From positions 62,001 through 126,000 of the forward strand of contig NZ_QCZF01000008.1 in assembly GCF_003075095.1 (NCBI RefSeq): DNA of 64,000 nucleotides, read 5' to 3'. Source of the DNA: Blastococcus litoris. Its GTDB lineage: Bacteria > Actinomycetota > Actinomycetes > Mycobacteriales > Geodermatophilaceae. Below the pieces are notes generated by a model. That model worked only from the letters and a program-made list of their open reading frames with translations, ran no database searches and was not told the origin of the DNA. Position numbers and translations under genes: made by a program. Positions 6,566 to 58,851 of this stretch are shown here, piece by piece (position 1 is the first letter of the stretch; every line of letters starts with the position of its first letter).

Positions 6566-7453
6566 GTGACCGGACCCGACCAGCCGGCCCCGCCCCCCGG
6601 CTGGTACCCCGACCCCGACGGGACACCGGGGCTCGTGCGCTGGTGGAACGGGCTCACCTGGTCCGACGTCGCCATCCCGTCCGGTCCGGGCGTCGCCGTC
6701 CAGTCCTCGCCGGTCCTCGCTCCGCCGTCGCGCCCGCCGTCGCCGGTGCCGCCGGCCGAGGAGCCGTCCGGCGGGGGCGGCGGCGCGCGGACGGCCTGGG
6801 TCGTCGGCGTCTCGCTCGTCGTGCTGGTCGCCGTCGTCGTGGCCGCCGTGTTCCTGGGCCGGCCCGCGTCGGAACCGGTCGCGGAGCAGCCGACGCCGTC
6901 CGCGCAGCTGCCGCCGGCCGGACCGGAGTTCCCGCCGGGGACCGTGCGGATCATCGACGAGGCCTCCGGGATCTCCTACCCCTACCTCGGCGAGAACTGG
7001 TACGAGTTCGACCTGGGCATGCAGGCCGAGGTCACCGCGATCGCCGGGCAGTACTTCGTCACCCAGGACCTGACCCCCGAGGGGACGACGTTCATCGCCC
7101 AGTGCACGTCCGGCCCGCTCTCGGACGGCCTCGGCTGGGCCGGCCCGTCGACGCTGCAGACGACGACGCTCACCATCGCCGACAGCGTGCGGTTCAACTA
7201 CTACCCGCGGCCCAACGAGCGGACCGTCCTCCGTGACGAGGCGCGCACCGTCGACGGGCACGAGGCCTACCTCTACGAGTTCCAGCTGGCGTGGGATGCC
7301 CCGGGCTACGACGCGAGCGGGGAACGCGCGGCGCTGCTGCTCATCGACGTCGGCCGGCCCGCGCCTGCGCTGCTCTACCTCTCGATCCCCAACACCCACG
7401 CCGAGCTCTACGGCGTGATCGACCGGGTCATCGACGCCGTCGACGTGCTGTGA
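6566..7453 (+). CDS. DUF2510 membrane-anchored protein
   Basis: A 295-residue protein. A DUF2510 motif is at the N-terminus (PPGWYPDP followed by RWWNGLTWS), with the pattern of tryptophans typical of actinobacterial envelope proteins. Then come a proline-rich linker, one membrane helix (VVGVSLVVLVAVVVAAVFLG, about residues 78-97) and an extracytoplasmic domain of about 190 residues with one visible cysteine. The outer domain includes YPYLGENWYEF and resembles no enzyme I recognise. The start at 6566 follows from the leaderless -10. Copy 1 of the dispersed hairpin repeat begins directly at its stop codon. Function unknown; probably surface or cell-envelope associated. Confidence 0.75.
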   Translation: MTGPDQPAPPPGWYPDPDGTPGLVRWWNGLTWSDVAIPSGPGVAVQSSPVLAPPSRPPSPVPPAEEPSGGGGGARTAWVVGVSLVVLVAVVVAAVFLGRPASEPVAEQPTPSAQLPPAGPEFPPGTVRIIDEASGISYPYLGENWYEFDLGMQAEVTAIAGQYFVTQDLTPEGTTFIAQCTSGPLSDGLGWAGPSTLQTTTLTIADSVRFNYYPRPNERTVLRDEARTVDGHEAYLYEFQLAWDAPGYDASGERAALLLIDVGRPAPALLYLSIPNTHAELYGVIDRVIDAVDVL

Positions 7454-7557
7454 CACGGCGATCCTCCGGATCGCACCGCGGCCACGTGCCGTCCCCCTGC
7501 TGCGCTGAGCCGCTCCGTCGCGCCTGCGCGGACCCCTCCGGGGCCCACTCGGCCCGA
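7451..7557 (-). repeat. Dispersed GGA-hairpin repeat, copy 1
   Basis: About 105 bp, read on the minus strand, roughly 90% identical to copy 2 by eye and related to copy 3. It has two GGA-loop hairpins. One is at 7530-7546, with arms GGGCCCC and GGGGTCC including one G-U pair. The other is at 7458-7474, with arms GCGATCC and GGATCGC. Between them lie CGCGCAGGCGCG and a GGGGGACGGC block. It fills most of the gap between the DUF2510 and M16 genes, and its last 7 nt include the DUF2510 stop codon. It could be an RNA gene, a 3' UTR element or a palindromic repeat. Confidence 0.8.
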
Positions 7558-7589
7558 CACCGCTGCCCTCGCCGATCGTCCTCCGCCGT

Positions 7590-7595
7590 TACTGT
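7590..7595 (+). promoter_or_regulatory. -10 element, leaderless M16 gene
   Basis: TACTGT lies 6 nt before GTG 7602 with no ribosome-binding site, indicating a leaderless transcript for the M16 pair. Confidence 0.5.
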
Positions 7596-7601
7596 CGTGG
7601 T

Positions 7602-8912
7602 GTGACTGCAGCCGGGACCGAACTGACCCTGCGGCACCCGGTGGAACGCTTCACCCTCGACAACGGGCTGCGCGTCGTCCTCGCCCCCGACCGCAGCGTG
7701 CCGGTGGTCGCGGTGAGCGTCTTCTACGACGTCGGGATGCGCAACGAACCCGAGGGGCGCACGGGCTTCGCCCACCTCTTCGAGCACATGATGTTCCAGG
7801 GCTCGGCCAACGTGCCGAAGATGGAGCACGCCCGCCTGGTGCAGGCGGCCGGCGGCACCTTCAACGGCTCGACCCACCAGGACTACACGAACTACTTCGA
7901 GGCGCTCCCGGCCGAGGCCCTCGAACGCGCGCTCTTCCTCGAGGCCGACCGCATGGCGGCGCCGGCGATCACCGAGGAGAACCTCCGCAACCAGATCGAC
8001 GTGGTGAAGGAGGAGATCCGGGTCAACGTGCTCAACCGGCCCTACGGCGCCTTCCCCTGGCTGCAGCTGCCGCAGATCGCCTTCGAGAGCTTCGCCAACA
8101 CCCACGACGGCTACGGCTCCTTCGTCGACCTCGAGTCCTCGACCGTCGACGACGCGGCCGACTTCTTCTCCACCTACTACGCACCCGGCAACGCCGTCCT
8201 CTGCATCGGCGGCGACCTCGACGTCGCCGAGACCGAGCGGCTGGTCCAGCGGTGGTTCGGCCCGGTGACCGCCCGACCGGTGCCGCCGCTCCCGCCGACC
8301 GGTGAGCCGCTGCCGACGAGCGTGCGCACCACGGTCGTCGAGGACGCGCTGGCCCCCGCGCCGGCCCTGGCCATCGGCTGGCGGGTCCCCGACCCCGTCG
8401 GCGACTTCGACCGCTACCTGGGCACCGTGCTGCTCGGCGAGCTGCTCAGCGAGGGCGACGCCTCCCGGCTGGAGCGCCGGCTCGTGCACGACGACCGCAT
8501 CGCCATCGCGCAGAGCAGCTACGTCGGTCTCTTCGGTGACCCGTTCGACGTCCGGGACGCCACGCTGCTCACCACCCAGGTGCACCACCCCGCCGCCGTC
8601 GCGCCGGAGACGGTGCAGGCCGCGGTGCACGAGGAGGTCGCGAAGATCGCCGACGACGGCGTCCCCGCCGACGAGCTGCGCCGCGTGCAGGCCCGCACCG
8701 AGGCGCAGCTGCTCCGGCAGGCCGACTCGGTGCTGGGCCGGACCCTCGGCTTCGCCGCTGCGGAGCTGGTCCACGGCCGTGCCGAGCTCGCCGGCGAGCT
8801 GGCCGCGCGGCTCGCTGCGGTGACGCCCGAGCAGGTGCAGGCCGCGGCCCGCGACCTGGATCCCGGCACCGCCGCCGTCCTCGAGCTGCGCGCCACGGGA
8901 GGACGGCGATGA
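7602..8912 (+). CDS. M16 zinc peptidase, catalytic subunit
   Basis: A 436-residue M16 (pitrilysin/processing-peptidase) protein. The inverted zinc motif HLFEH is at 58-62 and the distal ligand region ALFLEADRM is present, so this subunit binds zinc. The two halves are related M16 domains; the second carries no metal motif. The stop overlaps the start of the next M16 gene (ATGA). That neighbour lacks HxxEH but keeps the Arg/Tyr substrate-binding segment, so the two probably form an M16B heterodimer that degrades or processes oligopeptides. The GTG start follows a leaderless -10. It is the first gene of an operon with the second M16 gene and nudC. Confidence 0.9.
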   Translation: MTAAGTELTLRHPVERFTLDNGLRVVLAPDRSVPVVAVSVFYDVGMRNEPEGRTGFAHLFEHMMFQGSANVPKMEHARLVQAAGGTFNGSTHQDYTNYFEALPAEALERALFLEADRMAAPAITEENLRNQIDVVKEEIRVNVLNRPYGAFPWLQLPQIAFESFANTHDGYGSFVDLESSTVDDAADFFSTYYAPGNAVLCIGGDLDVAETERLVQRWFGPVTARPVPPLPPTGEPLPTSVRTTVVEDALAPAPALAIGWRVPDPVGDFDRYLGTVLLGELLSEGDASRLERRLVHDDRIAIAQSSYVGLFGDPFDVRDATLLTTQVHHPAAVAPETVQAAVHEEVAKIADDGVPADELRRVQARTEAQLLRQADSVLGRTLGFAAAELVHGRAELAGELAARLAAVTPEQVQAAARDLDPGTAAVLELRATGGRR

Positions 8913-10264
8913 GTCTCGACCTGTCCCTGATCCCGCCGCTGGGGGAGCCGCGGCCGCAGCCCGTCCCGACGGCGGTCGAGTCGACGCTGCCGAGCGGCCT
9001 GCGGCTGGTCGTGGTCCCGCGCCCCGGCGTCCCGCTGATCGAGCTGCGGCTGCGCGTGCCCTTCGCGGCGACGACGGCCGCCGACGCCGGCCTGCACACC
9101 GCGCAGGGCTCCGTGCTCTCCGGAGCGGTCCTGCTGGGCACCGCTGCCCACGACCAGACCGGCATCGCCCAGCTCCTGCAGGGCCACGGAGCCGAGCTGT
9201 CGGTCTCCACCGACCCCGACCGGCTGCTCTTGGCGACCACGCTGCTGCCCGACGGGCTCGGCCCCGTCCTCGGGGTGCTGGCCGAGCTGCTGACCGGGGC
9301 CACCTACCCCGACGACAAGGTGGAGGGCGAGCGCGAGCGCGTCGCCGAGCGGATCGCGATCGCCCTCTCCCAGCCCGGCGTCATCGCGCGCAGCGCCCTG
9401 GCCGCGCGACGCTACGGCGACCACCCCTACGCGATCACGCTCCCGGACCCGGGACTGGTGACCGGCGTCGACGGCGCCGCGCTGCGCGAGCTCCACCGCG
9501 CGCGGGTGCTCCCCGCAGGCAGCAGCCTGGTGCTCGTGGGCGACCTCGACCCGGCGGCCGCCGCCGACGCGGTCGCCGCGGCGCTGGGGGAGTGGGCCGG
9601 CAGCGGGCACGCCGTCGAGGCGCCCCCGGCACCCGAGCTGCACGGCGCCGGCATCGAGGTGGTCGACCGTCCTGGGGCGGTGCAGTCGAACATCCGCCTC
9701 GGCGGCCCGGCTCCCGGCCGGACCGACCCCGACCTGCCCGCGGTGCGCCTGGCCAACATGATCTACGGCGGGTACTTCTCCTCCCGCCTGGTCGAGAACA
9801 TCCGCGAGAACAAGGGCTACACGTACAGCCCGCGCAGCTCGGTCGACCACCTGGCCGCCGGCTCGTCGTTCCTCGTCGAGGCCGACGTCGCGACCGAGGT
9901 CACCGGCCCCGCACTGCTCGAGACCTGGTACGAGCTCGGCCGCATGGCCCTGCTGCCGGTGACCGAGGCCGAGCTCGACGCGGCGCGGCGCTACGTGCTG
10001 GGCAGCATGGCGCTGTCCACGGCCACGCACGCCGGGCTCGCCAGCACCCTCTCCGCCCTGGTCGGCGCGGGCCTGCCGCCGGGCTGGCTGGCCGAGCACC
10101 AGCAGGCACTGGCCCAGGTGACGGTCGAGCAGGTCCGGGAGGTCTCGCACCGGTACCTCGCCTCGACCGGGCTCACCGCGGTGGTCGTGGGCGACGCCGA
10201 GCGGATCTCCGGTCCGCTGGGTGCGCTCGCCCCGGTCAGCGTCCGGGCCGGCACCCCCGGATGA
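8909..10264 (+). CDS. M16 peptidase, non-catalytic partner subunit
   Basis: A 451-residue M16 family protein. The place of the HxxEH motif is occupied by HTAQGSVLSG, so zinc binding is lost. The C-terminal half keeps RENKGYTYSPRSS, the Arg/Tyr region that contacts substrate in active M16 enzymes. In characterised M16B heterodimers one subunit supplies zinc and the other supplies R/Y, and this pair has exactly that split. Its ATG start lies in the stop of the catalytic subunit (ATGA) and its stop overlaps nudC in the same way, implying coupled translation. A processing role for a specific peptide is possible but not shown. Confidence 0.88.
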   Translation: MSLDLSLIPPLGEPRPQPVPTAVESTLPSGLRLVVVPRPGVPLIELRLRVPFAATTAADAGLHTAQGSVLSGAVLLGTAAHDQTGIAQLLQGHGAELSVSTDPDRLLLATTLLPDGLGPVLGVLAELLTGATYPDDKVEGERERVAERIAIALSQPGVIARSALAARRYGDHPYAITLPDPGLVTGVDGAALRELHRARVLPAGSSLVLVGDLDPAAAADAVAAALGEWAGSGHAVEAPPAPELHGAGIEVVDRPGAVQSNIRLGGPAPGRTDPDLPAVRLANMIYGGYFSSRLVENIRENKGYTYSPRSSVDHLAAGSSFLVEADVATEVTGPALLETWYELGRMALLPVTEAELDAARRYVLGSMALSTATHAGLASTLSALVGAGLPPGWLAEHQQALAQVTVEQVREVSHRYLASTGLTAVVVGDAERISGPLGALAPVSVRAGTPG

Positions 10265-11181
10265 CGGTCCCCGCATCCGCGTGGCCGGAGGGCACCGGTC
10301 CCTCCACCGGCGAGGTCCCGGTGCTCAGCCGCGTCGCGCACGACCGGGCGCACCTGTCCCGCACGCAGCCCGACCCCACGGGCGGGCGGCCGGTCCGCGT
10401 CCTGACCGTCGACCTGAAGCGCACCGTGCCGGTGGTCGAGGGCGCCACCGGGCCGGCCCTGGTCTGGGACGAGCAGCCCGAGCTGCCCCTGGGCGCGGTC
10501 TACCTCGGCGAGGCCGACGGCGTCCCGTACGCGGCCGTACGCGGCGAGCGCTCCCTCACCGTGAACGGGCGGCCGGTGGACACCTGGACCGGGCTGCGCG
10601 AGGTCGGCGCCGACCTGGGTGACCTGGACGCCGGCCTGCTCGTCGAGGCCATCGGCATCCTGGAATGGCACGACCGGCACCGCTTCAGCCCGCTGACCGG
10701 CAACGCCACCACCGTGGAGCGCGCCGGCTGGGTGCAGCGCGACCCGGAGACCGGCACCGAGTTCTTCCCGCGCACCGACCCCGCGGTGATCATGCTCGTC
10801 CACGACGGCGACCGCGTCGTCCTCGGTCGGCAGGCCGTCTGGCCACCAGGACGCTTCTCCATCCTGGCCGGCTTCGTGGAGCCGGGGGAGTCGGCCGAGG
10901 CGGCGGTGGCCCGCGAGGTCGCCGAGGAGGTCGGCCTGGCGGTGACCGGCATCCGGTACGTCGGCAGCCAGCCCTGGCCGTTCCCGCAGTCGCTGATGCT
11001 GGGCTTCGTCGCCCGCGTCGATGGTCCCGACGACCTCGTGCTCGACCCCACGGAGATCGAGGAGGCCCGCTGGTTCACGCGGGAGGAGCTGGCTCGAGGG
11101 GAGGGACCGGCCGCGCTGCCGCCGCCGGTCTCGATCGCCCGGCACATCCTCGACCGCTGGATCGCCGGCGAGTTCAGCTGA
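10261..11181 (+). CDS. nudC: NAD(+) diphosphatase / Nudix hydrolase
   Basis: A 306-residue NudC-type enzyme that splits NADH to NMNH and AMP and in some bacteria removes NAD caps from RNA. The Nudix box GFVEPGESAEAAVAREVAEEVGL is complete, and the NudC signature SQPWPFPQS follows it. The zinc ribbon before the Nudix domain has no cysteines: the region reads LTGNATTVERAGW, so zinc is not expected. This is the usual third gene of the block also seen in mycobacteria. The ATG start overlaps the M16 stop. The gene converges with the kinase-like gene at 11174, overlapping it by 8 nt. Confidence 0.9.
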   Translation: MTVPASAWPEGTGPSTGEVPVLSRVAHDRAHLSRTQPDPTGGRPVRVLTVDLKRTVPVVEGATGPALVWDEQPELPLGAVYLGEADGVPYAAVRGERSLTVNGRPVDTWTGLREVGADLGDLDAGLLVEAIGILEWHDRHRFSPLTGNATTVERAGWVQRDPETGTEFFPRTDPAVIMLVHDGDRVVLGRQAVWPPGRFSILAGFVEPGESAEAAVAREVAEEVGLAVTGIRYVGSQPWPFPQSLMLGFVARVDGPDDLVLDPTEIEEARWFTREELARGEGPAALPPPVSIARHILDRWIAGEFS

Positions 11182-12546: not shown

Positions 12547-12553
12547 CTGGTGC

Positions 12554-12820: not shown

Positions 12821-12892
12821 CGAGGGGGATCCTCCCTGGTAGCGCCGAGCGGGTCCACCCCCGTGAGGGTGGCCTTGATCTGTCCCCGGACC

Positions 12893-12919
12893 AACGCCCC
12901 GACCCTGGGGATGCTTCCC
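12893..12919 (-). promoter_or_regulatory. SigR-type promoter for mrx1
   Basis: On the minus strand GGGAAG (12914-12919) is followed by 18 nt and GTT (12893-12895). The SigR/SigH consensus is GGGAAT-N18-GTT, so one base differs. Mycoredoxin is a known SigH target in mycobacteria. Confidence 0.6.
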
Positions 12920-12986
12920 GGCCTCGTCGCACCCGGCTGAGAGGATCGGGGTACGCACGTCGGCCGCGAGGACGGAAGGGGGTCCG

Positions 12987-15508: not shown

Positions 15509-15517
15509 GCGCTCGAC

Positions 15518-22888: not shown

Positions 22889-25861
22889 GTGGCCATGCGG
22901 CCCCCCGTGCCGGTGCCGACCCTGTCGCGCCGCGCGAAGCTGGTCCTCGGCGCCGTCGCCGTGCTCCTGGTCCTGTTCACGGCCATCGGCACGCTGACCA
23001 ACGTCTACGTCGACTACCTGTGGTTCGACGAGACGAACTACACCGAGGTCTTCTGGACCGAGATCCAGACCCGGGCGCTGCTGTTCGCCGTGGCCGGAGT
23101 GGCCACCGGTGGCCTGGTCGCCCTGTCGATCCACCTGGCGTACCGGTTCCGGCCGACGTTCCGGCCGATGTCGCTCGAGCAGCAGAACCTCGAGCGCTAC
23201 CGCCAGTCGCTCGAGCCGCGCCGCGGGCTGGTGCTCACCGCCGTGGCCGTCGTGCTGGGCCTGTTCGCCGGGTTCACGGCGCAGGGCAGCTGGCAGACCT
23301 GGCTGACGTTCCGCAACAGCACCGACTTCGGCCGGACCGACCCGCAGTTCGGCGTCGACCTGTCGTTCTTCGTCTTCGACTACCCCTTCTACCGGTTGGC
23401 CCTCGGCTTCGGGTTCGCCATCGTGCTGCTGGCGCTGATCGGGGCGGTGCTGACCCACTACGTCTTCGGCGGGCTGCGCCTGCAGACCCCGGGCCAGAAG
23501 CTGACGGCGGCGGCCCGCGTGCAGCTGTCGGTGCTGCTGGGCCTCTTCGTCGCGCTCAAGGCGGTCGCCTACTGGCTGGACCGCTACGGGCTGGTCTACT
23601 CCGACCGCGGTGACGTCTTCACCGGCGCGAGCTACACCGACGTCAACGCCCTGCTGGTCCCCAAGACCATCCTGATGTTCGTCGCCATCGTCTGCGCTCT
23701 GGCGTTCTTCGCCAACATCTTCGTGCGCAACTTCCTGCTGCCCGCCGCCGCGCTGGTGCTGCTGCTGGTCTCCAGCCTGGTGATCGGCGTGGCCTACCCG
23801 GCGATCGTCCAGCAGTTCGTCGTGCGGCCCAGCGCCGACCAGAAGGAGGCGCCCTACATCGAGCGGGCGATCGACTCCACCCTCGACGCGTACAACCTGT
23901 CCGACATCGACTACGTCAACTACGCGCAGGACGCGACCGGCGACTCGGTGGACACCGCGGCGGCGCAGGCGGAGCTCCGCAACGACACGGAGACGATCCC
24001 CAACGCGCGGCTGCTGGACCCGAACGTCCTGTCCCCGACGTTCACCGCCCGCCAGCAGATCCGCAACGTCTACGGCTTCCCGGAGAAGCTGGACATCGAC
24101 CGGTACACGGTCGACGGCGAGACCCGTGACTACGTGGTGGCGGTGCGCGAGCTCAACAGCTCCGGTCTCTCCGAGAACCAGAGCAGCTGGATCAACCGGC
24201 ACACCGTCTACACCCACGGCAACGGGTTCGTCGCCGCACCGGCCAACGAGGTCGTCGCCGGCCAGGAGGGCGGCGAGCCGAACTTCACGACCGGGGACCT
24301 GCCCACCCGCGGCAACATCGAGGTGGACGCGAACGGTGCGCGGATCTACTACGGCGAGCTGATCCAGCAGAACGGCCAGGACGTCTACTCCGTCGTCGGC
24401 GCTCCCGAGGGTTCGGAGCCGCGCGAGTTCGACCGTCCCGAGGACGGTTCGGACGAGGGCCAGGTGAACAACACCTACGACGGCGAGGGCGGCGTCGAGA
24501 TCGGCAGCTTCTTCCGTCAGCTGACCTTCGCCATCTACTACCGGGAGCGGAACTTCCTGCTGTCCGGGGCGGTCAACGACGAGTCGAAGGTGCTCTACGT
24601 GCGTGACCCCCGGGACCGCGTCGAGAAGGCGGCACCGTTCCTCGAGGTGGACGGCGACCCGTACCCGGCGGTGATCGACGGCCGCGTGACCTGGATCCTC
24701 GACGGCTACACGACCTCGGACGCCTACCCGTACGCGGAGCTGCGCGACCTCGGGACGACGGCCGCCGACTCGCTGACCGGCGCCGGCACCACGGCGCTGC
24801 CCAACGACCAGTTCAACTACATCCGCAACTCGGTGAAGGCGACGGTCGACGCGTACGACGGCACGGTCACGCTCTACGAGTGGGACCGCGAGGACCCCGT
24901 CCTGCAGACGTACATGAAGGCGTTCCCGGGCACGGTCACCTCGTACGACGACATCCCGGACGAGCTGATGAGCCACGTCCGGTACCCGGAGGACCTGTTC
25001 AAGCTGCAGCGCGACATCCTGACGCGCTACCACGTCTCGAACCCGGTCGACTTCTACAACCAGAACGACCGTTGGCAGGTGCCCGACGACCCGACCCAGG
25101 ACACCGATGCCGCGCAGCCGCCGTACTACATCCTGGCGCAGCGGCCCGGTGACGACGAGGCGTCGTTCCAGCTGACCAGTGCGCTGAACGCCTTCAACCG
25201 CGAGAACCTGTCCTCGTTCATCTCGGCGTCCAGCGATCCGGACACCTACGGCGAGATCCAGGTCCTCCGATTGCCGGGCAACACCCCGTTCCGTGGCCCT
25301 CAGCAGGTGCAGCAGTCGTTCATCACGAACAACCAGGTGAGACCTGACCTGACGCTGTTCAACAGCCAGGAGTCCCGGGCGGTCTTCGGGAACCTGCTGA
25401 CGCTGCCGATCGGGGAGGACGGGCTGCTCTACGTCGAGCCGCTGTACGTCCAGGGCACGGGGGAGAACTCCTTCCCGCTGCTGCAGAAGGTCCTCGTGAA
25501 CTACGGGGACCGGGTCGGGTACGCCAACACGCTGTCGGAGGCGCTCGACCAGGTCTTCGGCGCCGGGGCGGGGGAGTCGGCCGTGGACAGCGGTGACGCG
25601 CCGCCCACGGATGCGCCCGAGTCGCCGGAGACGACGGCACCTACGACGCCGACCGCCCCGCCGGACACCGGCGACGGCACCTCCGGGAACGCGTCGCTGG
25701 ACCAGGCGGTCGCGGACATCCAGAGCGCGCTGGAGGCCCTGCAGACCGCGCAGCGCAACGGCGACTTCGCCGGTCAGGGGCAGGCGCTCGAGGACCTGCA
25801 GCAGGCGGTCACCGCCTACCAGCAGGCGCAGCAGGCCGCCGCGACGTCGCCGGGCGGCTGA
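22889..25861 (+). CDS. UPF0182 large membrane protein
   Basis: A 990-residue UPF0182 (Rv3193c-like) protein. About seven membrane helices lie in the first 310 residues (LVLGAVAVLLVLFTAIGTL is the first), followed by a large extracytoplasmic region containing YPAIVQQFVVRPSADQK and YVDYLWFDE-type signatures. The last 100 residues are Pro/Thr/Asp-rich and then form a Gln/Ala coiled coil (LEALQTAQRNGDFAGQGQAL). The function of the family is unknown. GTG 22889 has GAAGGAGAG upstream. A very strong hairpin terminator follows. Confidence 0.9.
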   Translation: MAMRPPVPVPTLSRRAKLVLGAVAVLLVLFTAIGTLTNVYVDYLWFDETNYTEVFWTEIQTRALLFAVAGVATGGLVALSIHLAYRFRPTFRPMSLEQQNLERYRQSLEPRRGLVLTAVAVVLGLFAGFTAQGSWQTWLTFRNSTDFGRTDPQFGVDLSFFVFDYPFYRLALGFGFAIVLLALIGAVLTHYVFGGLRLQTPGQKLTAAARVQLSVLLGLFVALKAVAYWLDRYGLVYSDRGDVFTGASYTDVNALLVPKTILMFVAIVCALAFFANIFVRNFLLPAAALVLLLVSSLVIGVAYPAIVQQFVVRPSADQKEAPYIERAIDSTLDAYNLSDIDYVNYAQDATGDSVDTAAAQAELRNDTETIPNARLLDPNVLSPTFTARQQIRNVYGFPEKLDIDRYTVDGETRDYVVAVRELNSSGLSENQSSWINRHTVYTHGNGFVAAPANEVVAGQEGGEPNFTTGDLPTRGNIEVDANGARIYYGELIQQNGQDVYSVVGAPEGSEPREFDRPEDGSDEGQVNNTYDGEGGVEIGSFFRQLTFAIYYRERNFLLSGAVNDESKVLYVRDPRDRVEKAAPFLEVDGDPYPAVIDGRVTWILDGYTTSDAYPYAELRDLGTTAADSLTGAGTTALPNDQFNYIRNSVKATVDAYDGTVTLYEWDREDPVLQTYMKAFPGTVTSYDDIPDELMSHVRYPEDLFKLQRDILTRYHVSNPVDFYNQNDRWQVPDDPTQDTDAAQPPYYILAQRPGDDEASFQLTSALNAFNRENLSSFISASSDPDTYGEIQVLRLPGNTPFRGPQQVQQSFITNNQVRPDLTLFNSQESRAVFGNLLTLPIGEDGLLYVEPLYVQGTGENSFPLLQKVLVNYGDRVGYANTLSEALDQVFGAGAGESAVDSGDAPPTDAPESPETTAPTTPTAPPDTGDGTSGNASLDQAVADIQSALEALQTAQRNGDFAGQGQALEDLQQAVTAYQQAQQAAATSPGG

Positions 25862-25934: not shown

Positions 25935-26008
25935 CGCGGGGTGGAGCAGCTCGGTAGCTCGCTGGGCTCATAACCCAGAGGTCGCAGGTTCGAATCCTGC
26001 CCCCGCTA
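25935..26008 (+). tRNA. Initiator tRNA-Met (CAT), copy 1
   Basis: A 74-nt cloverleaf: acceptor CGCGGGG/CCCCGCT, anticodon loop CTCATAA, T-loop TTCGAAT. The three consecutive G-C pairs in the anticodon stem (GGG/CCC) and the unpaired 1:72 position mark an initiator tRNA. CCA is not encoded. A TACAGT -10 at 25917-25922 suggests its own promoter. It differs from copy 2 only by one compensated T-stem base pair (G-C here, A-T there). Confidence 0.95.
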
Positions 26009-35660: not shown

Positions 35661-35734
35661 CGCGGGGTGGAGCAGCTCGGTAGCTCGCTGGGCTCATAAC
35701 CCAGAGGTCACAGGTTCGAATCCTGTCCCCGCTA
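35661..35734 (+). tRNA. Initiator tRNA-Met (CAT), copy 2
   Basis: A 74-nt initiator tRNA with the same acceptor, D-arm and GGG/CCC anticodon stem as copy 1. The only difference is one T-stem pair (A-T instead of G-C). The flanks are unlike those of copy 1. It has its own -10 (TAACCT at 35644-35649) and terminator. CCA is not encoded. Confidence 0.95.
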
Positions 35735-38574: not shown

Positions 38575-39345
38575 GTGATCGAACTGCGCACACCCGGCGA
38601 GCTGGACGCGATGCGGGCGGCCGGCGCCGTCGTGGCCGACATGCTGGCCGCCGTCCGGGCGACCGCGGCACCCGGCGTCCGGCTGAGCCAGCTCGACGCC
38701 GTCGCCCGCGACGTCCTGGCCGACGCCGGCGCCACCTCGCCGTTCCTCGGCTACGCGCCGCTGTCCACCACGCCGCCCTTCCCGGGCGTCGTGTGCCTGT
38801 CGGTGAACGACGTCGCCCTGCACGGGATCCCCTCGCCGGACGTCCTCGACGACGGCGACCTGCTCAGCGTCGACGCCGGCGCGACCCTCGACGGCTGGGT
38901 CGGCGACGCGGCGATCACCTTCCCGGTGGGGACGCCGCGCCCCGAGGACCTCGAGCTCGTGGCGACCACCGAGCGGGCGCTGGAGGCCGGCATCGCGGCG
39001 GCCGTCGTCGGCAACCGGATCGGGGACATCTCCGCCGCCATCGGCGCCGTCGGCCGGGCTGGGGGAGTCGGCATCAACACCGACCAGGGCGGCCACGGGG
39101 TCGGCCGGTCGATGCACGAGGCGCCGAGCGTCCCGAACGAGGGCCGGGCCGGTCGCGGGGTGCCCCTGCGCGCCGGGCTGGTCATCGCGATCGAGCCGTG
39201 GTTCCTGGGCGGTGGGAGCGACGACTACCGGGTCGACGCCGACGGCTGGACGCTGCGCAGCGCCGACGGCAGCCGCGCCGCCCACGTCGAGCACACCGTC
39301 GCCGTGACAGCTGACGGACCGAGGATCTTGACCCTTCCCAGGTAG
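38575..39345 (+). CDS. map: Methionine aminopeptidase type I
   Basis: A 256-residue cytosolic enzyme that removes the initiator Met. The dinuclear metal-site ligands are recognisable in LLSVDAGATLDGWVGDAAITF (two Asp), GGHGVGRSMHEAP (His), LVIAIEPW (Glu) and HVEHTVAVT (Glu), and YAPL is the substrate loop. The length fits type Ia. GTG 38575 has GGAAGGACG upstream. The divergent XRE gene and tandem repeats suggest local regulation. Copy 2 of the dispersed repeat begins 8 nt after its stop. Confidence 0.92.
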   Translation: MIELRTPGELDAMRAAGAVVADMLAAVRATAAPGVRLSQLDAVARDVLADAGATSPFLGYAPLSTTPPFPGVVCLSVNDVALHGIPSPDVLDDGDLLSVDAGATLDGWVGDAAITFPVGTPRPEDLELVATTERALEAGIAAAVVGNRIGDISAAIGAVGRAGGVGINTDQGGHGVGRSMHEAPSVPNEGRAGRGVPLRAGLVIAIEPWFLGGGSDDYRVDADGWTLRSADGSRAAHVEHTVAVTADGPRILTLPR

Positions 39346-39352: not shown

Positions 39353-39458
39353 GTCGTGCCGAGTGGGCCCGGAGGGTCCGCGCAGGCGCGACGAAGCGGC
39401 TCAGTGCGGCCGGGGGACGGCTCCTGGCCGCGGTGTGACCCGGAGGGTCACCGTGTCA
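39353..39458 (+). repeat. Dispersed GGA-hairpin repeat, copy 2
   Basis: About 105 bp on the plus strand. The first hairpin is 39365-39379 (GGGCCC/GGGTCC, one G-U, GGA loop) and the last is 39435-39451 (GTGACCC/GGGTCAC, GGA loop). The right arm of the last hairpin contains the stop codon of metB, and the match to copy 1 continues 8 nt into the metB coding end. It lies between convergent map and metB. Confidence 0.8.
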
Positions 39459-40583
39459 TCGCCTGGTCGAGGTCGGCGAGGAGGTCGTCGACGTCCTCGA
39501 TGCCGACCGAGAGCCGCACCAGGTCGGCCGGCACCTCGAGCGGTGAGCCCGCTGCGCTGGCGTGGGTCATGCGGCCCGGGTGCTCGATCAGCGACTCGAC
39601 ACCGCCCAGCGACTCGGCCAGCGTGAACAGCTGCGCGCGCTCGCACACCTTCAGCGCGGCGTCCTCGCCGTCCTCCAGCCGGAACGAGATCATCCCGCCG
39701 AACCCCGACATCTGCTTCGCCGCGACGTCGTGACCCGGGTGCGACGGCAGGCCCGGGTACAGCACGGTCGAGACGGCGGGGTGGTCGAGCAGGAACTCCG
39801 CCACGCGCGCGGCGTTCGCCGAGTGCCGGTCCATCCGGACGCCGAGCGTCTTGAGGCTGCGCAGCACCAGCCACGAGTCGAACGGCGACGCGACGGCGCC
39901 CATCGCGTTGTGGTTGTAGGCCAGGCGCTCGCCGAGCCCCGCGTCCCGCGTCACCAGGGCACCGCCCACGACGTCGGAGTGCCCGCCGAGGTACTTGGTC
40001 GTGGAGTGGACGACGACGTCGGCGCCGAGGGTGAGCGGGCGCTGCAGGTACGGCGAGGCGAAGGTGTTGTCGACGACGAGCAGCGCGCCGGCCTCGTGCG
40101 CGACCGCCGCGGTGGCCTCGATGTCGGTGATGTTCAGCAGCGGGTTGCTCGGCGTCTCGCACCAGACCACCCGCGTCGTGGGCCGCATCGCGGCGCGCAC
40201 GGCGTCGGGGTCGTCGAGGTGGACCGGCGTGTGCTCCAGGTCCCACTCCGACAGCACCCGGGAGATCAGCCGGAAGGTGCCGCCGTACGCGTCGCCGCCC
40301 AGCACGACGTGGTCACCGGCGCGGCAGACCGTCCGGAGGAGGGTGTCCTCCGCGGCGAGACCGGACGCGAAGGCCAGCGCCGTCGAGCCCTCCTCCAGCG
40401 AGGCGAGCGCCTCGTGCAGGGCGTTGCGCGTCGGGTTGCCGCTGCGGCTGTACTCGTAGCCGCCGCGCAGGCCGCCCACGCCGTCCTGCTTGTACGTCGT
40501 CGTCAGGTGCACCGGGGGGATGACCGCGCCGGTGGCCGGGTCGGGCTCCTGCCCCGCGTGGATCGCCCGCGTGCTGAAGCCGC

Positions 40584-50943: not shown

Positions 50944-51075
50944 GCGCGTGGTCCTCGTCTCTGGGGAACGTCGTCCGCTACGAGGTCTACCCCTCGGCCC
51001 GGGACGCACGCACGGCGGGTTGTCGCAGGCCGCACCTAGAGTCGGGGGGACAGCCCGAGCAGGGAGGAAGCGCCG

Positions 51076-51822: not shown

Positions 51823-51824
51823 CG

Positions 51825-53351: not shown

Positions 53352-53352
53352 G

Positions 53353-53826: not shown

Positions 53827-53870
53827 GGAGCCGGAGCGTAGCGAGGGTCTCGTGCGCGGTGGCCGCCGCC

Positions 53871-53897
53871 GGGAATCGGTGCCCACCGGCGTCGGTT
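53871..53897 (+). promoter_or_regulatory. SigR-type promoter of sigR
   Basis: GGGAAT (53871-53876), 18 nt, GTT (53895-53897): an exact match to the SigR/SigH consensus. It lies about 140 nt upstream of sigR on the same strand, suggesting autoregulation. Confidence 0.75.
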
Positions 53898-54035
53898 GCA
53901 GGGACCGTGAGCAGCACCGTCTCCAGCGCCCGCCCCAGGGCCGCGCACCGGCGGCCCCCGGGCCGTCCCGACGCCGCGCGGCTAGGATCGACCGATGCGG
54001 CGCCCCGCATCCGGGGGCCCCAGAGAGGACGGTCG

Positions 54036-54722
54036 GTGCCTGAGCAGACCGCAGATCAGACCCCCGAGGTGACGGTTCCCGTCGAGACGCCCGAGGCCCG
54101 GGCCGACGGGAGCCGGTCCGGGGTGGCCGAGACCCGTGCCGAGCGGGACGCCCGCTTCGAGCGGGACGCGCTGCCCTTCCTCGACCAGCTCTACCCGGCG
54201 GCGCTGCGGATGACCCGCAACCCGGCCGACGCCGAGGACCTGGTGCAGGAGACCTTCGTGAAGGCCTACTCGGCCTTCCACCAATTCGCCGAGGGCACGA
54301 ATCTCAAGGCGTGGCTGTACCGGATCCTGACGAACACCTACATCAACAGCTACCGCAAGAAGCAGCGCCAGCCGCAGCAGTACCCCACCGACCAGGTGCA
54401 GGACTGGCAGCTGTACGCCGCCGAGGAGCACACCTCCAGCGGCCTGCGGTCGGCCGAGATCGAGGCGCTGGACCACCTCCCGGACTCCGACATCAAGGAG
54501 GCCCTGCAGCAGCTGCCGGAGGACTTCCGGCTGGCGGTGTACCTCGCGGACGTCGAGGGCTTCGCCTACAAGGAGATCGCGGAGATCATGGGCACCCCGA
54601 TCGGCACGGTGATGTCCCGACTGCACCGCGGCCGCCGGGGCCTGCAGAAGCTGTTGGCCGATTACGCCCGCGAGCGCGGCTTCGTCCGCGCCGGAGCCGG
54701 TGAGGAGGCGAGCCAGTCATGA
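54036..54722 (+). CDS. sigR: Thiol-stress ECF sigma factor SigR/SigH
   Basis: A 228-residue ECF sigma factor. Region 2 ([23 protein letters not shown] and [22 protein letters not shown]) and region 4 ([42 protein letters not shown]) are complete. It pairs with the anti-sigma factor gene by ATGA overlap. The N-terminal 45 residues are acidic and variable. GTG 54036 has GAGAGGA upstream. SigR controls thioredoxin, mycoredoxin and proteolysis genes in other actinobacteria; here the exact consensus promoter upstream indicates autoregulation, and mrx1 at 12.8 kb has a near match. Confidence 0.93.
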
Positions 54723-55048
54723 CCGACGACGTCCATGGCGGGGCTGAGCCGATCGACATCACCTCGTGCGACGACGTGCTCTCCCACGTCTTCGAGTTCC
54801 TCGACCACGAGACCGGGGACGCGCGGCGGGCGCAGATCGCCGAGCACCTCGAGGACTGCTCGCCGTGCCTGCGCGAGTTCGGCATCGAGCAGGAGTTCAA
54901 GGCGCTGGTACGCCGCCGCTGCGGGGGCGACGCGCCGCCGTCGGGCCTCCGCGAGCGGATCAAGATCCAGCTCACGAGCATCTCCTTCGAGGAGGACGGC
55001 ACGCAGGTCAGCGTCGAGCGGATCACCGCCGAGCGCACCGGCGAGTAG
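54719..55048 (+). CDS. rsrA: Redox-sensing anti-sigma factor RsrA/RshA
   Basis: A 109-residue ZAS-type anti-sigma factor. The zinc site is H43-x3-C47-x2-C50, with C17 and C68 in the positions of the disulfide-forming cysteines (RsrA C11 and C61 shifted by six or seven). Oxidation should release zinc and free SigR. C3 and C62 of Streptomyces RsrA have no counterpart. The start overlaps sigR by ATGA, so the two are co-translated. A strong terminator follows. Confidence 0.92.
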
Positions 55049-55063
55049 CCACCCGCCGACGAC

Positions 55064-55103
55064 GAAGCGCCCCACCTCTGCATCCGCGGAGGTGGGGCGC
55101 TTC
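55064..55103. terminator. Terminator between rsrA and bL37 gene
   Basis: GAAGCGCCCCACCTC (55064-55078) pairs perfectly with GAGGTGGGGCGCTTC (55089-55103), 10-nt loop. It serves the plus-strand rsrA and possibly the convergent bL37 gene. Confidence 0.8.
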
Positions 55104-55112
55104 TCGTCGCTC

Positions 55113-55187
55113 TCAGGCGTTGGGCCGCTTGCCGTGGTTGGCCTTGTTCCCCTTGCGGGAGCGACGCTTGCGTCCACGCTTGGACAT
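55113..55187 (-). CDS. Ribosomal protein bL37 (AURKAIP1/COX24 domain)
   Basis: A 24-residue, extremely basic protein beginning MSKRGRKRRS and ending ANHGKRPNA. This is the small actinobacterial large-subunit protein bL37 first seen in mycobacterial ribosomes, encoded in the same place next to rshA. ATG 55187 has GGAGGG about 9 nt upstream. It is too short for usual gene finders, but sequence, size and neighbourhood all agree. Confidence 0.9.
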   Translation of the reverse strand: MSKRGRKRRSRKGNKANHGKRPNA

Positions 55188-55354
55188 CGCGCTGCCCTCC
55201 TCTCGCTGCCGGTGGGGCTGCAGACCCCTCGTTCTCGCGGGCCGGGACGCCGGTCACTATCGTGCGCGGGGCCGCCGGAACCGCCAAGCTGACGCTGCAA
55301 GCCTCTCACGGGGCGCTCCGGCTGCGTGCCGGGCGGGGGGTTGCTGAGGGGGCA

Positions 55355-56404
55355 GTGGTGGCGCAGCTGGCGATCGAGAGCGTGCTCGTGGCAGGACGGG
55401 GGCCGGCCGCGTGTGCCGTGATCTCGGCGTGCACCCGTCTCGGGGTGAAGGCCGTGGCGGTGCACTCGGAGGCCGAGCGGTCGGCGCGCCACGTGCGGCT
55501 GGCCGACGAGGCGGTGCTCCTCGGGCCGGCTCCGGCGAGCGAGTCCTACCTCGCCGTCGACCGCATCGTGGAGGCGGCCCGGCGCAGCGGTGTCGGCGCC
55601 GTCCTGCCGGTGCCGCCCGCGCTGGCCGGCAACGCGCGCCTGGCGGCGGCGGTGGTCGACGCCGGGCTGACGTGGGTCGGACCCGACGCCGAGGTGCTCG
55701 AGCGCCTCGGCGGTGACGGCGTGGAGCCGGCGAGCGAGCGGGGGTTCCTCGCGTGGGTGACCGCCGACGGCCTGCGGTTCGCGACCCCGGTCGCGCGTGA
55801 CCGGGCGGCCGGGATCGCCCGCGTCTCCTGGACCCCGGACGGGTGGGACGGGAGCGCGCCGGCGCTGCCCGCGGCCGCCCGCCGGGTGGCAGAGGTGGGC
55901 TGGCGCGGGCTGGCCACGGTCGGCGTGTCACCCGACGGAGAGCTCGCCGAGGTGGCGGCCGGCTTCTCGCTCGACATCGCCGTCCTCGAGCGTGCCCACG
56001 GCGTGGACGCCGTGGAGCTCGCCCTCCGCAGCGCGGGTGGCGCAGCCGCGCCGGCGCCGGCCGGCCGCGGCCCGCGTGCGGCGGTGGCCGCGCAGCTGCG
56101 GTCGACGCTCCCCCCGGGGACGGCCGGGCGGGTCACCGGCTCGCTGCCGGTGCAGTCGGGACGTCCGGCGGACGACGTGCCGGTGGTGGCCGTCAGCGGC
56201 TACGAACCCGGCGACCGGCTGGACGGGTGGTACGACGCCCTGCTGGCGACGGTCAGCGCCGGCGGCCCGGCGACAGCGACCGCTGCAGGAGCTGTCTCCC
56301 GGGAGCTGTCGGACCTCCCGGACGTGGGCGTGCCGCACGACGGCGACGAGGTCTGCGCGGTGCTCGCGCGACTGGCTGCCGGGAGCAGCGTCCCCACCGC
56401 CTGA
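55355..56404 (+). CDS. Degenerate biotin-carboxylase-like protein
   Basis: A 349-residue protein. The first 110 residues match the N-terminal domain of biotin carboxylase (SVLVAGRGPAACAVISACTRLG, then AVHSEAERSARHVRLADEAVLLGP and VVDAGLTWVGPDAEVLERLG). The ATP-grasp B domain that should follow is missing. The next stretch (AEVGWRGLATVGVSPDGELAEV) resembles the C-subdomain but lacks the RLQVEHPV-type catalytic residues. It should not bind ATP normally. It lies 54 nt upstream of the one-domain biotinyl protein gene. The start, GTG 55355, has a weak site; GTG 55358 is equally possible. Confidence 0.7.
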   Translation: MVAQLAIESVLVAGRGPAACAVISACTRLGVKAVAVHSEAERSARHVRLADEAVLLGPAPASESYLAVDRIVEAARRSGVGAVLPVPPALAGNARLAAAVVDAGLTWVGPDAEVLERLGGDGVEPASERGFLAWVTADGLRFATPVARDRAAGIARVSWTPDGWDGSAPALPAAARRVAEVGWRGLATVGVSPDGELAEVAAGFSLDIAVLERAHGVDAVELALRSAGGAAAPAPAGRGPRAAVAAQLRSTLPPGTAGRVTGSLPVQSGRPADDVPVVAVSGYEPGDRLDGWYDALLATVSAGGPATATAAGAVSRELSDLPDVGVPHDGDEVCAVLARLAAGSSVPTA

Positions 56405-56458
56405 GTGGCGTGCTTGGATGCAATCGCCGGGTTCGGTGCACGCTCACGAGGAGGCACG

Positions 56459-56683
56459 GTGGCGGTCGAGGAGATCCACGCGGAGATGGTCTCCAGCGTC
56501 TGGAAGGTCCTCGTGGAGCCCGGCGCGACGGTGGCGCCCGGCGACACCCTGGTCATCCTCGAGTCGATGAAGATGGAGATCCCCGTCCTCACCGAGCGCG
56601 CCGGTGTCGTCCAGGAGATGCACGTGGTGGAGGGCGAGGTGCTCCAGGAGGGCGACCTGATCGCCACCGTCACCGACGCCTGA
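56459..56683 (+). CDS. Biotinyl/lipoyl attachment protein (TB7.3-like)
   Basis: A 74-residue single biotinyl domain with the attachment Lys38 in ESMKMEIPV, preceded by PGDTLVILE and followed by VHVVEGEVLQEGDLIATV-like strands. It is the counterpart of the M. tuberculosis biotinylated protein TB7.3 (Rv3221c) in the same place. GTG 56459 has GAGGAGG upstream. The partner carboxylase is unknown; the neighbouring biotin-carboxylase-like protein lacks catalytic parts. Confidence 0.9.
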   Translation: MAVEEIHAEMVSSVWKVLVEPGATVAPGDTLVILESMKMEIPVLTERAGVVQEMHVVEGEVLQEGDLIATVTDA

Positions 56684-56686
56684 GGG

Positions 56687-57187
56687 TCACAGCTCCAGCG
56701 CGTAGACCATGAGGTCGATGCCGGGCACCGGCGTCCAGTCGCGCTCGGGCAGCCGCCGGAAGCCCAGCCGTTCGTAGAGGCGGTGGGCCGCCGTCATCGC
56801 CGGGCCGGTCGAGAGCACCATGCGCCGCTTGCCAGCGGCGCGGGCCAGGTCCAGGCAGGTCCGGACCAGCAGCTCGCCGGTGCCGCGGCCCCGCGCCTGC
56901 GGGTCCACGACGAGCATCCGGAACGCGGCCTCGTCGTCGGACTCGGTCACCTCGCCGAAGTTGCCGTCGAGGACGAGCGCCACGCTGCCGATCACGCGGC
57001 CGTCGTCGTCCCGGACCACCAGCAGCTGCGACCGCGCGGACCGGCCGCTGACGTCGGCCAGCTCGGCGACGTACCCGGAGGAGGCGAGGCCGCCCTCCAC
57101 GTAGACGCCGACGGTCAGCTCGGCGATGCGCTCGAACTCGTCGGGGCGGGCAGGCTGCACGGACGGAGCAGGAGCGGGGCGGACCAC
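56687..57187 (-). CDS. GNAT family N-acetyltransferase
   Basis: A 166-residue GNAT enzyme. The acetyl-CoA loop is MLVVDPQARGRGTGELLV, preceded by a beta-bulge (IGSVALVLDG) and followed by LSTGPAMTAAHRLYERLGFRRL. The substrate is unknown. GTG 57187 has TAGGCT (minus, 57194-57199) 6 nt upstream, so it is probably leaderless. It is divergent from pdtaS with 42 bp between starts. Confidence 0.88.
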   Translation of the reverse strand: MVRPAPAPSVQPARPDEFERIAELTVGVYVEGGLASSGYVAELADVSGRSARSQLLVVRDDDGRVIGSVALVLDGNFGEVTESDDEAAFRMLVVDPQARGRGTGELLVRTCLDLARAAGKRRMVLSTGPAMTAAHRLYERLGFRRLPERDWTPVPGIDLMVYALEL

Positions 57188-57214
57188 CCGGGCAGCCTAA
57201 GGCGTGGGCCGCCT

Positions 57215-57220
57215 TACGCT
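57215..57220 (+). promoter_or_regulatory. -10 element for pdtaS leader
   Basis: TACGCT lies 9 nt before ATG 57230 of the seven-codon leader peptide. It would give a leaderless transcript starting at that ATG. Confidence 0.45.
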
Positions 57221-57229
57221 CGGAGCACC

Positions 57230-57253
57230 ATGGACACCTCCGGCGCCGCATGA
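57230..57253 (+). CDS. Possible seven-residue leader peptide of pdtaS
   Basis: ATG 57230 encodes MDTSGAA followed by TGA (57251-57253), which overlaps the pdtaS ATG as ATGA. With a TACGCT -10 9 nt upstream and no separate ribosome-binding site for pdtaS, the kinase may be translated only by reinitiation after this peptide. It is inferred from spacing only. Confidence 0.5.
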   Translation: MDTSGAA

Positions 57254-58731
57254 GCAGCCTCTCGGACCGGCTGACCCGCGGGTCGGCGTCGCACCCCTCG
57301 CAGGTCGAGCACGCCCGTCGGCTGGTCGCCGACTGGCAGCTGCTCGCCGACCTCGCCTTCGCCGACCTCACGCTGTGGGTGCCGCTGGCGAGCGGGGCCT
57401 GGTGGTGCGTGGCGCAGGTGCGGCCGCTCACCGCACCGACGAGCCGGCCGGAGGACCTGGTCGGCAGCGAGGTGTCCGGAGAGATCGCCGCGCCCTTCGT
57501 GACCGCGCACCGGGAGGGCCGGCCGGTCACCGAGGGCGAGCCCGACTGGTCGGGTGCGGCACCTCGGCGCCGCGAGGTCATCCCCGTCCGCCACGACGGG
57601 GTGGTGGTGGCGGTCCTGGCCAAGGACACCAATCTGGCCGTCACCCGGTCGCCGTCGACGCTGGAGCTCACCTACCTCGACATCGCCGCTGACCTGTGCC
57701 TGATGGTGTCGGCCGGCACGTTCCCGCCGGAGAAGCTGCAGGACGCCGAGATGAGCCCGCGGGTGGGTGACGGTCTGGTGCGCCTGGACGCCGGGGGCCG
57801 GGCCATCTACGCGAGCCCCAACGCGCTGTCGGCCTACCGGCGCATCGGCGTCCCGGGCGACGTGGTGGGCGCCGACCTCGCGGAGCTGACCCGGGTGGCG
57901 GCGGCCGACCGGGTCGCCGGCGAGTCCGCCGCCGCGGGCATCGCCGCCGCCGTGTCGGGGCGGTTCCCCGACCCCGTGGACGTCGAGGGGCCCACGGCCA
58001 CGATGCTGGTGCGGGCGCTGCCGCTGCAGGCACCCGGGGCAGAGGCGGGTGCCCTGGTCCTCGTGCGCGACGTCACCGACGTCCGGCGCCGGGACCGGGC
58101 GCTGCTGACCAAGGACGCGACCATCCGCGAGATCCACCACCGGGTGAAGAACAACCTGCAGACGGTCGCCGCGCTGCTGCGGCTGCAGGCCCGGCGCATG
58201 ACCGAGCCGGCGGCACGGGCCGCGCTGGAGGAGTCGGTGCGGCGGGTGGCGTCGATCGCCGTCGTCCACGAGACGCTGGCCGGCAGCCGGGAGGACGTCG
58301 TGGACGTCGACGACGTCCTCGACCAGGTGCTGCCGATGCTGGGCGACCTGACGTCGGTCGGTCCCGCGGCCCGCACCCGGCGGACGGGGTCCTTCGGGGA
58401 GCTGCCCGCGGCCGCGGCCACGCCGCTGGTCCTGGCGGTGACCGAGCTGCTGCACAACGCCGCCGAGCACGCCTTCCCCGACGGGGAGCCGGGGAGCATC
58501 GAGCTGGTCGCGGAGCGGGACGGCGACGACCTGGTGGTGCGGGTGCGGGACAACGGTCGCGGCCTGCCCGAGGACTTCGACCCCGCGGCCAGCGACGGGC
58601 TGGGCCTGCAGATCGTGCGGACGCTGGTCACCAGCGAGCTGGGCGGCACGCTGACGATGGGCAGCCCGCCCGACCAGCAGGGAACAGAGGCCGTTCTGAC
58701 GCTCCCAGGAGCCGGCCAGCCGAGGCGCTAG
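57250..58731 (+). CDS. pdtaS: Sensor histidine kinase PdtaS
   Basis: A 493-residue soluble histidine kinase. The N-terminal GAF-like domain (WQLLADLAFADLTLWVPL) is followed by a PAS-like domain (about 170-280), a HisKA_2 dimerisation domain with IHHRVKNNLQTVAALLRLQARR (phospho-His in the HHR motif), and an HATPase with ELLHNAAEHAFP and DNGRGLP. It is the counterpart of Rv3220c, whose partner is the ANTAR regulator PdtaR. The start ATG 57250 overlaps a small leader ORF. No PdtaR gene is in the window. Confidence 0.9.
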   Translation: MSSLSDRLTRGSASHPSQVEHARRLVADWQLLADLAFADLTLWVPLASGAWWCVAQVRPLTAPTSRPEDLVGSEVSGEIAAPFVTAHREGRPVTEGEPDWSGAAPRRREVIPVRHDGVVVAVLAKDTNLAVTRSPSTLELTYLDIAADLCLMVSAGTFPPEKLQDAEMSPRVGDGLVRLDAGGRAIYASPNALSAYRRIGVPGDVVGADLAELTRVAAADRVAGESAAAGIAAAVSGRFPDPVDVEGPTATMLVRALPLQAPGAEAGALVLVRDVTDVRRRDRALLTKDATIREIHHRVKNNLQTVAALLRLQARRMTEPAARAALEESVRRVASIAVVHETLAGSREDVVDVDDVLDQVLPMLGDLTSVGPAARTRRTGSFGELPAAAATPLVLAVTELLHNAAEHAFPDGEPGSIELVAERDGDDLVVRVRDNGRGLPEDFDPAASDGLGLQIVRTLVTSELGGTLTMGSPPDQQGTEAVLTLPGAGQPRR

Positions 58732-58752
58732 CAGGGAGCCGGGGACGAGCCG

Positions 58753-58851
58753 TCGCGGCGAGTGGGGGCCGGAGGCTCCCGCGCAGCCGCGACACAGCGG
58801 CTCCGCTCAACAGGGGACGGCAATTGGTGGCGGTGTCGTCCGGAGGACGAC
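58753..58851 (+). repeat. Dispersed GGA-hairpin repeat, copy 3
   Basis: A diverged copy: hairpin 58764-58780 (GGGGGCC/GGCTCCC with one G-U, GGA loop) and hairpin 58835-58851 (GTCGTCC/GGACGAC, GGA loop). Between them lie GCGCAGCCGCGAC and GGGGACGGC. It begins 21 nt after pdtaS and is followed by a strong terminator. Confidence 0.75.

Follow-up and report, generated by a model that had tools for sequence, protein, structure and literature searches.

Background

The described systems closest to the element reported here are repetitive extragenic palindromes (REPs), bacterial interspersed mosaic elements (BIMEs) and REP doublets forming hairpins (REPINs). In the available sections of the papers cited, these are short extragenic palindromes that are interspersed in mosaic or tandem layouts and show compensatory changes in their stems; their hairpins can form in single-stranded DNA or in mRNA, and some are located within 15 nt of a stop codon (PMC3116915, PMC3733652, PMC12306157). 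For REPINs the accessible text describes compensatory changes as common and reports tandem clusters as well as hairpins in either nucleic acid (PMC3116915). E. coli REPs at a distance of up to 15 nt from the stop codon can stall ribosomes, and the part of the same study available lists predicted REPs in three Actinomycetota, none of them belonging to the Geodermatophilaceae (PMC12306157). REPs without a transposase exist, and M. tuberculosis and D. radiodurans are named in an excerpt as having untagged REP-like families (PMC3733652). We compared with these systems an element of about 110 bp that is present three times in a stretch of 64,000 nucleotides from Blastococcus litoris (contig NZ_QCZF01000008.1, positions 62,001 to 126,000 of the forward strand; this whole stretch is called the window). 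An earlier note, made from the letters of the window, had described it as a three-copy dispersed element that points to a structured RNA, not to a simple DNA repeat.

Two hairpins with C(GNA)G triloops, which are joined by a conserved core, define the repeat. It has the dispersed extragenic palindromes in many copies in common with REPs and REPINs, and the alternation of different palindromes with conserved linkers, also in tandem, in common with BIMEs. It differs from REPs and REPINs in that the genomes of the Geodermatophilaceae contain no Y1 transposase (0 of 57), in that hairpins 1 and 3 are separate self-palindromes and not two inverted REPs, and in having a conserved core of about 42 nt and a hairpin-3 end that is directed toward the 3' end of the neighbouring gene. 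A GTAG or CGTC tetranucleotide was not recognized by eye as a conserved flank in our alignment A3 or in the tail consensus, a dedicated test not being part of this inspection.

CGTC-tagged REPs are likewise palindromic repeats without an associated transposase, and the text at hand gives them stems of 8-9 bp, loops of 4-5 nt and a CGTC end (PMC3733652). The Geodermatophilaceae element, with stems of 7 and 8+9 bp, GNA triloops and the tail TGTCAT.GC, is set apart from them by description. Mycobacterial interspersed repetitive units (MIRUs) are similar in being actinobacterial interspersed units of 40-100 bp, some of them with variable tandem number (PMC2734929, available in part). In contrast to MIRUs, our element is enriched between convergent genes, a distinction made by description and not by sequence. 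MIRUs are located at stop/start codons between co-directional genes, and we know of no two-hairpin fold in these units.

The element is probably an interspersed palindromic mosaic repeat specific for the Geodermatophilaceae, similar to REPs, BIMEs and REPINs and mobile without a REP-associated tyrosine transposase (RAYT); its mobility and its effect at gene ends are what we infer. If this is true, a large interspersed palindromic repeat family has been described for this bacterial family. How repeats spread without RAYT is a question that was already open for the CGTC REPs (PMC3733652, in the part available), and the preferred orientation to gene 3' ends makes both the spread and the effect directly testable.

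Structure of the element

We kept the sense strand of the earlier note, which reads hairpin 1, core, hairpin 3 and tail TGTCAT.GC in this order. Hairpin 1 consists of an outer 8-bp stem of the GTCGTGCC/GGCACGAC type, a GA/GCA internal loop and an inner stem of 9 bp (8 bp in copy 2 of the window), and occurs in several sequence types across genera. The core with GCTC and GGGnACGGC...TGGCCGCGGT is largely invariant, and core and loops are conserved across genera. A possible GCGGC/GCCGC pairing inside the core was rejected by eye because of its variable 5' side. Hairpin 3 has a stem of 7 bp. The consensus of the tail is also found in 68 copies that were not called less than 16 nt from a facing stop codon, with majority letters of 46-87% per position; the tail therefore belongs to the element.

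GGA loops are present in 176 of 182 hairpins 3, which were chosen by their outer five pairs only. The loops of 172 hairpins 1 comprise 143 GGA, 13 GCA, 7 GAA and 9 others. Using a slightly different set, we found 19 single-base variants of the hairpin-1 loop with a conserved C-G closing pair; 17 of them are changed at the middle base (13 distinct stems). L106, with a CGA loop and another closing pair, is outside these 19. The GGA loops initially reported for both hairpins are confirmed for hairpin 3, whereas the loop rule of hairpin 1 is C(GNA)G and not strictly GGA. The accessible part of PMC5815330 regards d(GNA) triloops closed by a C-G pair as a stable DNA motif. No general excess of hairpins with GGA triloops was apparent: the 12 most frequent triloops in 734 kb of sequence (three stretches from the source genome, G011 and G002, picked for synteny with the window contig and not for single copies) do not include GGA.

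Covariation and strand signal

Alignment A3 contains 45 copies and is the source of the search model R1; 12 of 57 sequences were dropped due to length variation or gap placement. Covariation was judged against shuffles, and no tree was used. In A3, 98.0% of 1079 cells are paired compared with 88.4% in the shuffles. Double changes were detected in 12 of 24 pairs (7.0 in shuffles) and in 109 cells (36 in shuffles), none of 500 shuffles reached any of five covariation measures, and in sliding controls pairing dropped to 34-52%. Further copies with stem changes that break the pairing, which the earlier note had named as evidence against its claim, were not seen.

The wobble pairs mark the sense strand. 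On this strand the ratio of G.U to A.C is 215:20 in 111 model-aligned matches, 108:14 without model fitting over the nine hairpin-1 pairs of 84 distinct stems (97:8 at pairs 4-8), and 24:3 in 168 hairpins 3 or 17:3 in 40 distinct ones, many of these wobbles being inherited and hence not independent events. Some occupy set positions of A3: pair 12-30 is U.G in 42 of 45 copies, and pair 15-27 is G.U in 30 of 45. Both a covarying structure and a defined strand, as originally proposed, are supported by these data. Folding energy was dropped as a proof of the strand. Of 133 selected copies, 130 fold better as the sense strand, but most of the energy gap is also present in dinucleotide shuffles (-11.1 kcal/mol observed, -8.1 in shuffles), and about 73% of it is composition.

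The double changes, the wobble ratios obtained with and without model fitting and in hairpin 3, and the conserved core are all in favor of a cis-acting RNA. In this case the sense strand would be transcribed as 3' untranslated region of the gene on the hairpin-1 side or from its own promoter, and it would be bound by a protein or processed. We consider such an RNA unlikely. Strong covariation and a wobble-marked strand alone are no proof of a functional RNA, the energy gap being mostly composition speaks against it, and additional results on gene order and on orthologous sites, given with those analyses, point in the same direction.

Distribution of the family

The element is not limited to three copies. 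R1 detected at least 26 matches in the source genome (67 candidates scored), and a BLAST search with copy 2 revealed at least 24 places at E <=0.001, copy 3 being absent from the BLAST matches listed; each of these counts scores only part of the candidates, and high per-genome R1 counts may be too low. Among 31 genomes, BLAST with copy 2 matched 19, namely the source, all 15 further genomes of the genus and all 3 from other genera of the family, and none of the 12 genomes of other families. A search with R1 resulted in matches in 47 of 57 Geodermatophilaceae genomes; each of these has 1 to 68 matches (stricter filters, 67 candidates scored for every genome). Among 296 genomes sampled from the class, with 12 candidates scored for each, two matched, the source and one with a weak match. 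The latter, the sole match among the 295 other class genomes, is located in G096 of another family (47.5 bits) and is either an old shared copy or derived from a wrongly placed genome. This copy (L207) lies before a gene of the same cluster as the gene that follows L021 in the source genome, with nearly equal distances (78 and 79 nt).

A pattern scan of named genomes yielded at least 118 stretches. The 80 titles listed (L059-L138) name Blastococcus, Geodermatophilus, Modestobacter, Klenkia or Geodermatophilaceae, plus one record flagged Bacillus. This record (L077, SPQJ01000031.1, UNVERIFIED_ORG Bacillus sp. AZ43) contains a good copy of the element with 99.3 bits and is probably mislabelled. 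The element is an interspersed repeat family that extends across the Geodermatophilaceae (bacteria of soil and rock). In agreement with the previous statement that no known family matches, Rfam 15 at gathering score identified only two tRNAs in the whole window. A relaxed Rfam scan of the copy 2 region gave six matches up to E 10, all far below gathering scores (best E 0.97), and the microRNA matches among them were rejected as chance. A literature search retrieved no description of this repeat, most subscription journals being outside its reach. The tRNA genes of the window are located at 25935-26008 and 35661-35734 and are unconnected with the repeat.

GGA in hairpin loops is the signature of CsrA, and one CsrA gene is present in 48 of the 57 family genomes; the nine genomes without CsrA are all without an R1 match. 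In spite of this co-absence it is highly improbable that the repeats are a family of CsrA-binding GGA hairpins which act as a dispersed sponge or as sites of post-transcriptional control. The nine genomes belong to only three genera (g18, g21, g23) and five of them are under 90% complete, so that one or two lineage events may explain the pattern. Furthermore, CsrA is also encoded in G062, a genome without an R1 match, and the hairpin-1 loop variants, mainly at the central base (17 of 19), are explained by the GNA fold and not by strict GGA binding. The single CsrA gene of the source genome is L256 (G000:C1:648669-648824).

Placement at gene ends

For the analysis of placement we used 245 copies and a simple gene caller; most of these loci had been fetched for containing an element. 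Exclusion of 15 copies at locus edges and 10 inside a called gene left 220 copies with a gene on both sides. Written with the element (E) in the sense direction between its two genes, the classes are 116 >E<, 69 <E<, 27 >E> and 8 <E>. In 185 of 220 cases the stop end of the hairpin-3-side gene is turned toward the element. For 120 of the 220 copies the distance between this stop and hairpin 3 is -5 to 15 nt, and for 46 it is exactly 4 nt (42 TGA, 3 TAA, 1 TAG). On the hairpin-1 side the gene faces the element with its stop in 143 of 220 cases, 49 of them at -5 to 15 nt. Complete elements number 11 in the 734 kb; they occupy 7 of the 111 convergent gene pairs, 4 of the 453 co-directional ones and none of the 112 divergent ones. 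At six of the eight <E> loci (L010, L063, L136, L145, L192, L195) the 3' end of a tRNA-Leu(CAA) gene is 9-14 nt away from hairpin 3, which makes gene 3' ends, and not stop codons as such, the common factor. These tRNA loci also have a nearby gene that by eye resembles a response regulator.

A cis-acting RNA would be compatible with the 143 copies behind a gene reading into the sense strand, but not so readily with the other 77 (69 <E< and 8 <E>), which are not read in this strand by the hairpin-1-side gene. In addition, an evident shared function of the neighbouring genes was found neither for the window copies nor for ten hairpin-3-side genes elsewhere in the genome, which are equally mixed.

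The position of hairpin 3, which follows stops at a distance of a few nt and tRNA-Leu ends at 9-14 nt, together with the enrichment in convergent pairs, is what suggests a terminator, an insulator or a guard of mRNA 3' ends, serving the hairpin-3-side gene on the other strand or both convergent genes. Such a role, which would be compatible with a mobile repeat, appears distinctly unlikely to us. Several empty orthologous sites hold ordinary hairpins instead (by eye), and 35 of 67 convergent regions with an element leave no 44-nt piece for another hairpin. However, in the regions with at least 44 nt left over, another strong hairpin is as frequent (30 of 32) as in length-matched controls (27 of 30), and a simple replacement of terminators is therefore unsupported. 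Moreover, inspection by eye showed no T-run after the hairpins in any of the three window copies, whichever strand was read, and the wobbles favor the strand opposite to the one read by the hairpin-3-side gene. As a mobile repeat, the element would be tolerated, perhaps favored, wherever its tail adjoins a gene 3' end. At these sites the tail could supply a TGA stop in one frame, and hairpins directly behind a gene could secondarily affect mRNA 3' ends.

Turnover at orthologous sites

Arrays of the type (hairpin 1-core)n-hairpin 3, repeated hairpins 3 and lone hairpins 1 all occur. Two genomes of the same genus lack window copy 3 at their orthologous sites, and at the orthologous site of copy 1 one relative has a different hairpin-1 type and another one has no element. 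For 154 query copies, 212 orthologous sites carry an element in the same orientation, 45 carry it inverted and 29 are without; these counts are not independent because reciprocal pairs and repeated loci of the own genome are recounted, and occupied sites are overrepresented among the fetched loci. The 20-kb stretches alone gave 19 same, 2 inverted and 9 without. After exclusion of arrays and near-identical flanks, 57 same-orientation orthologous pairs remained, in which the identity of the elements is 78%, compared with 73% in random pairs; that of the flanks is 85% in their aligned parts. Tandem arrays were observed at L031, L049 (G015:C1 about 24300-24590) and L172, with periods of about 87 and 113 bp and inner units without hairpin 3.

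A comparison of hairpin 3 in 50 orthologous pairs with GGA loops revealed 275 unchanged pair positions, 52 double-changed and paired, 14 single-changed and paired, and 9 single-changed and broken. Copy replacement, gene conversion or palindrome correction suits these changes better than stepwise compensation, since for the latter more intermediates would be expected than were seen. The 52 double paired versus 23 single changes would also agree with covariation without function, i.e. inert repeats whose arms are kept alike by template-switch palindrome correction or by gene conversion. This explanation overlaps with a mobile repeat. It is quite unlikely, as correction should erase the wobbles that persist at set positions (42 of 45 and 30 of 45 copies), and core and loops are conserved across genera.

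Taken together, the preference of the earlier note for a structured RNA over a simple DNA repeat was not supported. Besides the 77 of 220 copies that the hairpin-1-side gene does not read in the sense strand, 52 of 75 changed pair positions in the orthologous last hairpins are complete double changes and intermediates are few, the family shows arrays, lone modules, empty and inverted sites, and the lower folding energy of the sense strand is mostly base composition.

Probable mobility without a Y1 transposase

The Y1 (RAYT) transposase domain PF01797 was found in none of the 57 family genomes, the source genome included, while the control was positive in 5 of 14; a Y1 transposase was therefore rejected as the mover. 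We propose that the element would spread as DNA, perhaps via a folded single strand that corresponds to the sense strand, and that the mover would be an enzyme other than a Y1/RAYT transposase. A more specific version of this proposal is possible, although we put it forward only tentatively. In this version the repeats would form a RAYT-free class of mobile mosaic repeats, marked by the C(GNA)G triloops as a stable DNA hairpin motif and by the wobbles on one strand, which would move as a folded single DNA strand and would land in an oriented manner at the 3' ends of genes and tRNA genes through a recombinase.

Several results weigh against a mobile repeat. No mobilising enzyme was found. Replication-strand bias was not detected in six genomes (46 versus 39 of 85, p 0.52, with rounded genome lengths; 90 matches, reduced to 85 by collapse of tandem neighbours), which weakens the single-strand route. 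No copy was found on plasmids or phages, and viral contigs had no match to the exact pattern. At empty sites neither an exact insertion boundary nor a target duplication was readable, as the flanks are too different. In addition, 75% of the orthologous pairs are above the random median identity and 212 of 286 orthologous sites have the same orientation (19 of 30 in the 20-kb stretches); the kept orientation and identity also fit vertical descent with fast change or gene conversion. Finally, the hairpins may be selected as RNA.

Six weak matches to a DnaA domain with equal score were observed in G010:C1, in frames of 269 aa scattered over the genome. Our guess is that these frames are copies of the helper ATPase of an insertion sequence.

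The three copies in the window

R1 placed the window copies at 7449-7558 (minus strand), 39353-39460 (plus) and 58752-58860 (plus), with E values of 1e-22 to 1.3e-20; the next best match within the window has an E value of 0.078. The training set of R1 includes copy 1 (L002), but not copies 2 and 3. The parts of the three copies are as follows.

7517-7558, minus strand: copy 1 hairpin 1, outer 8-bp stem with one G-G mismatch, GA/GCA internal loop, inner 9-bp stem and C(GGA)G loop
7475-7516, minus strand: copy 1 conserved core, GCTC...GGGGACGGC...TGGCCGCGGT
7458-7474, minus strand: copy 1 hairpin 3, GCGATCC-GGA-GGATCGC
7449-7457, minus strand: copy 1 tail, CGTGTCACA
39353-39392, plus strand: copy 2 hairpin 1, inner stem shorter by one pair
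39393-39434, plus strand: copy 2 conserved core
39435-39451, plus strand: copy 2 hairpin 3, GTGACCC-GGA-GGGTCAC
39452-39460, plus strand: copy 2 tail, CGTGTCATC
58752-58793, plus strand: copy 3 hairpin 1
58794-58834, plus strand: copy 3 conserved core
58835-58851, plus strand: copy 3 hairpin 3, GTCGTCC-GGA-GGACGAC
58852-58862, plus strand: copy 3 tail, diverged

All three sites and orientations correspond to those given in the earlier note, and its reading of the last hairpins, with four of seven stem positions that differ and still pair, was confirmed by the sequence. The reported shortening of hairpin 1 in copy 2 is correct as to the loss of one pair, but the inner stem is reduced from 9 to 8 pairs and the outer 8-bp stem had been missed. 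Instead of one G-U pair per copy in hairpin 1, the full inner stem contains two wobbles in each window copy. The statement that the copies are always located between genes holds in part: hairpin 3 of copy 2 contains the stop codon (39448-39450) of the opposing gene for a Cys/Met-metabolism PLP enzyme.

In the tail of copy 1, TCA at 7451-7453 is the TGA stop of the plus-strand gene 6557-7453, which encodes a DUF2510 protein. The Peptidase_M24 gene (ORF 38575-39345, plus strand) stops 7 nt upstream of hairpin 1 of copy 2, and hairpin 1 of copy 3 begins 20 nt past the stop of the gene for a PdtaS-type histidine kinase (57250-58731, plus strand). A gene for an M16 peptidase is also near the window copies, and a DAGK-domain gene is located at greater distance. 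A long GC-rich inverted repeat, CACGAAGGCCGG...CCGGCCTTCGTG, follows 3' of the copy 3 tail.

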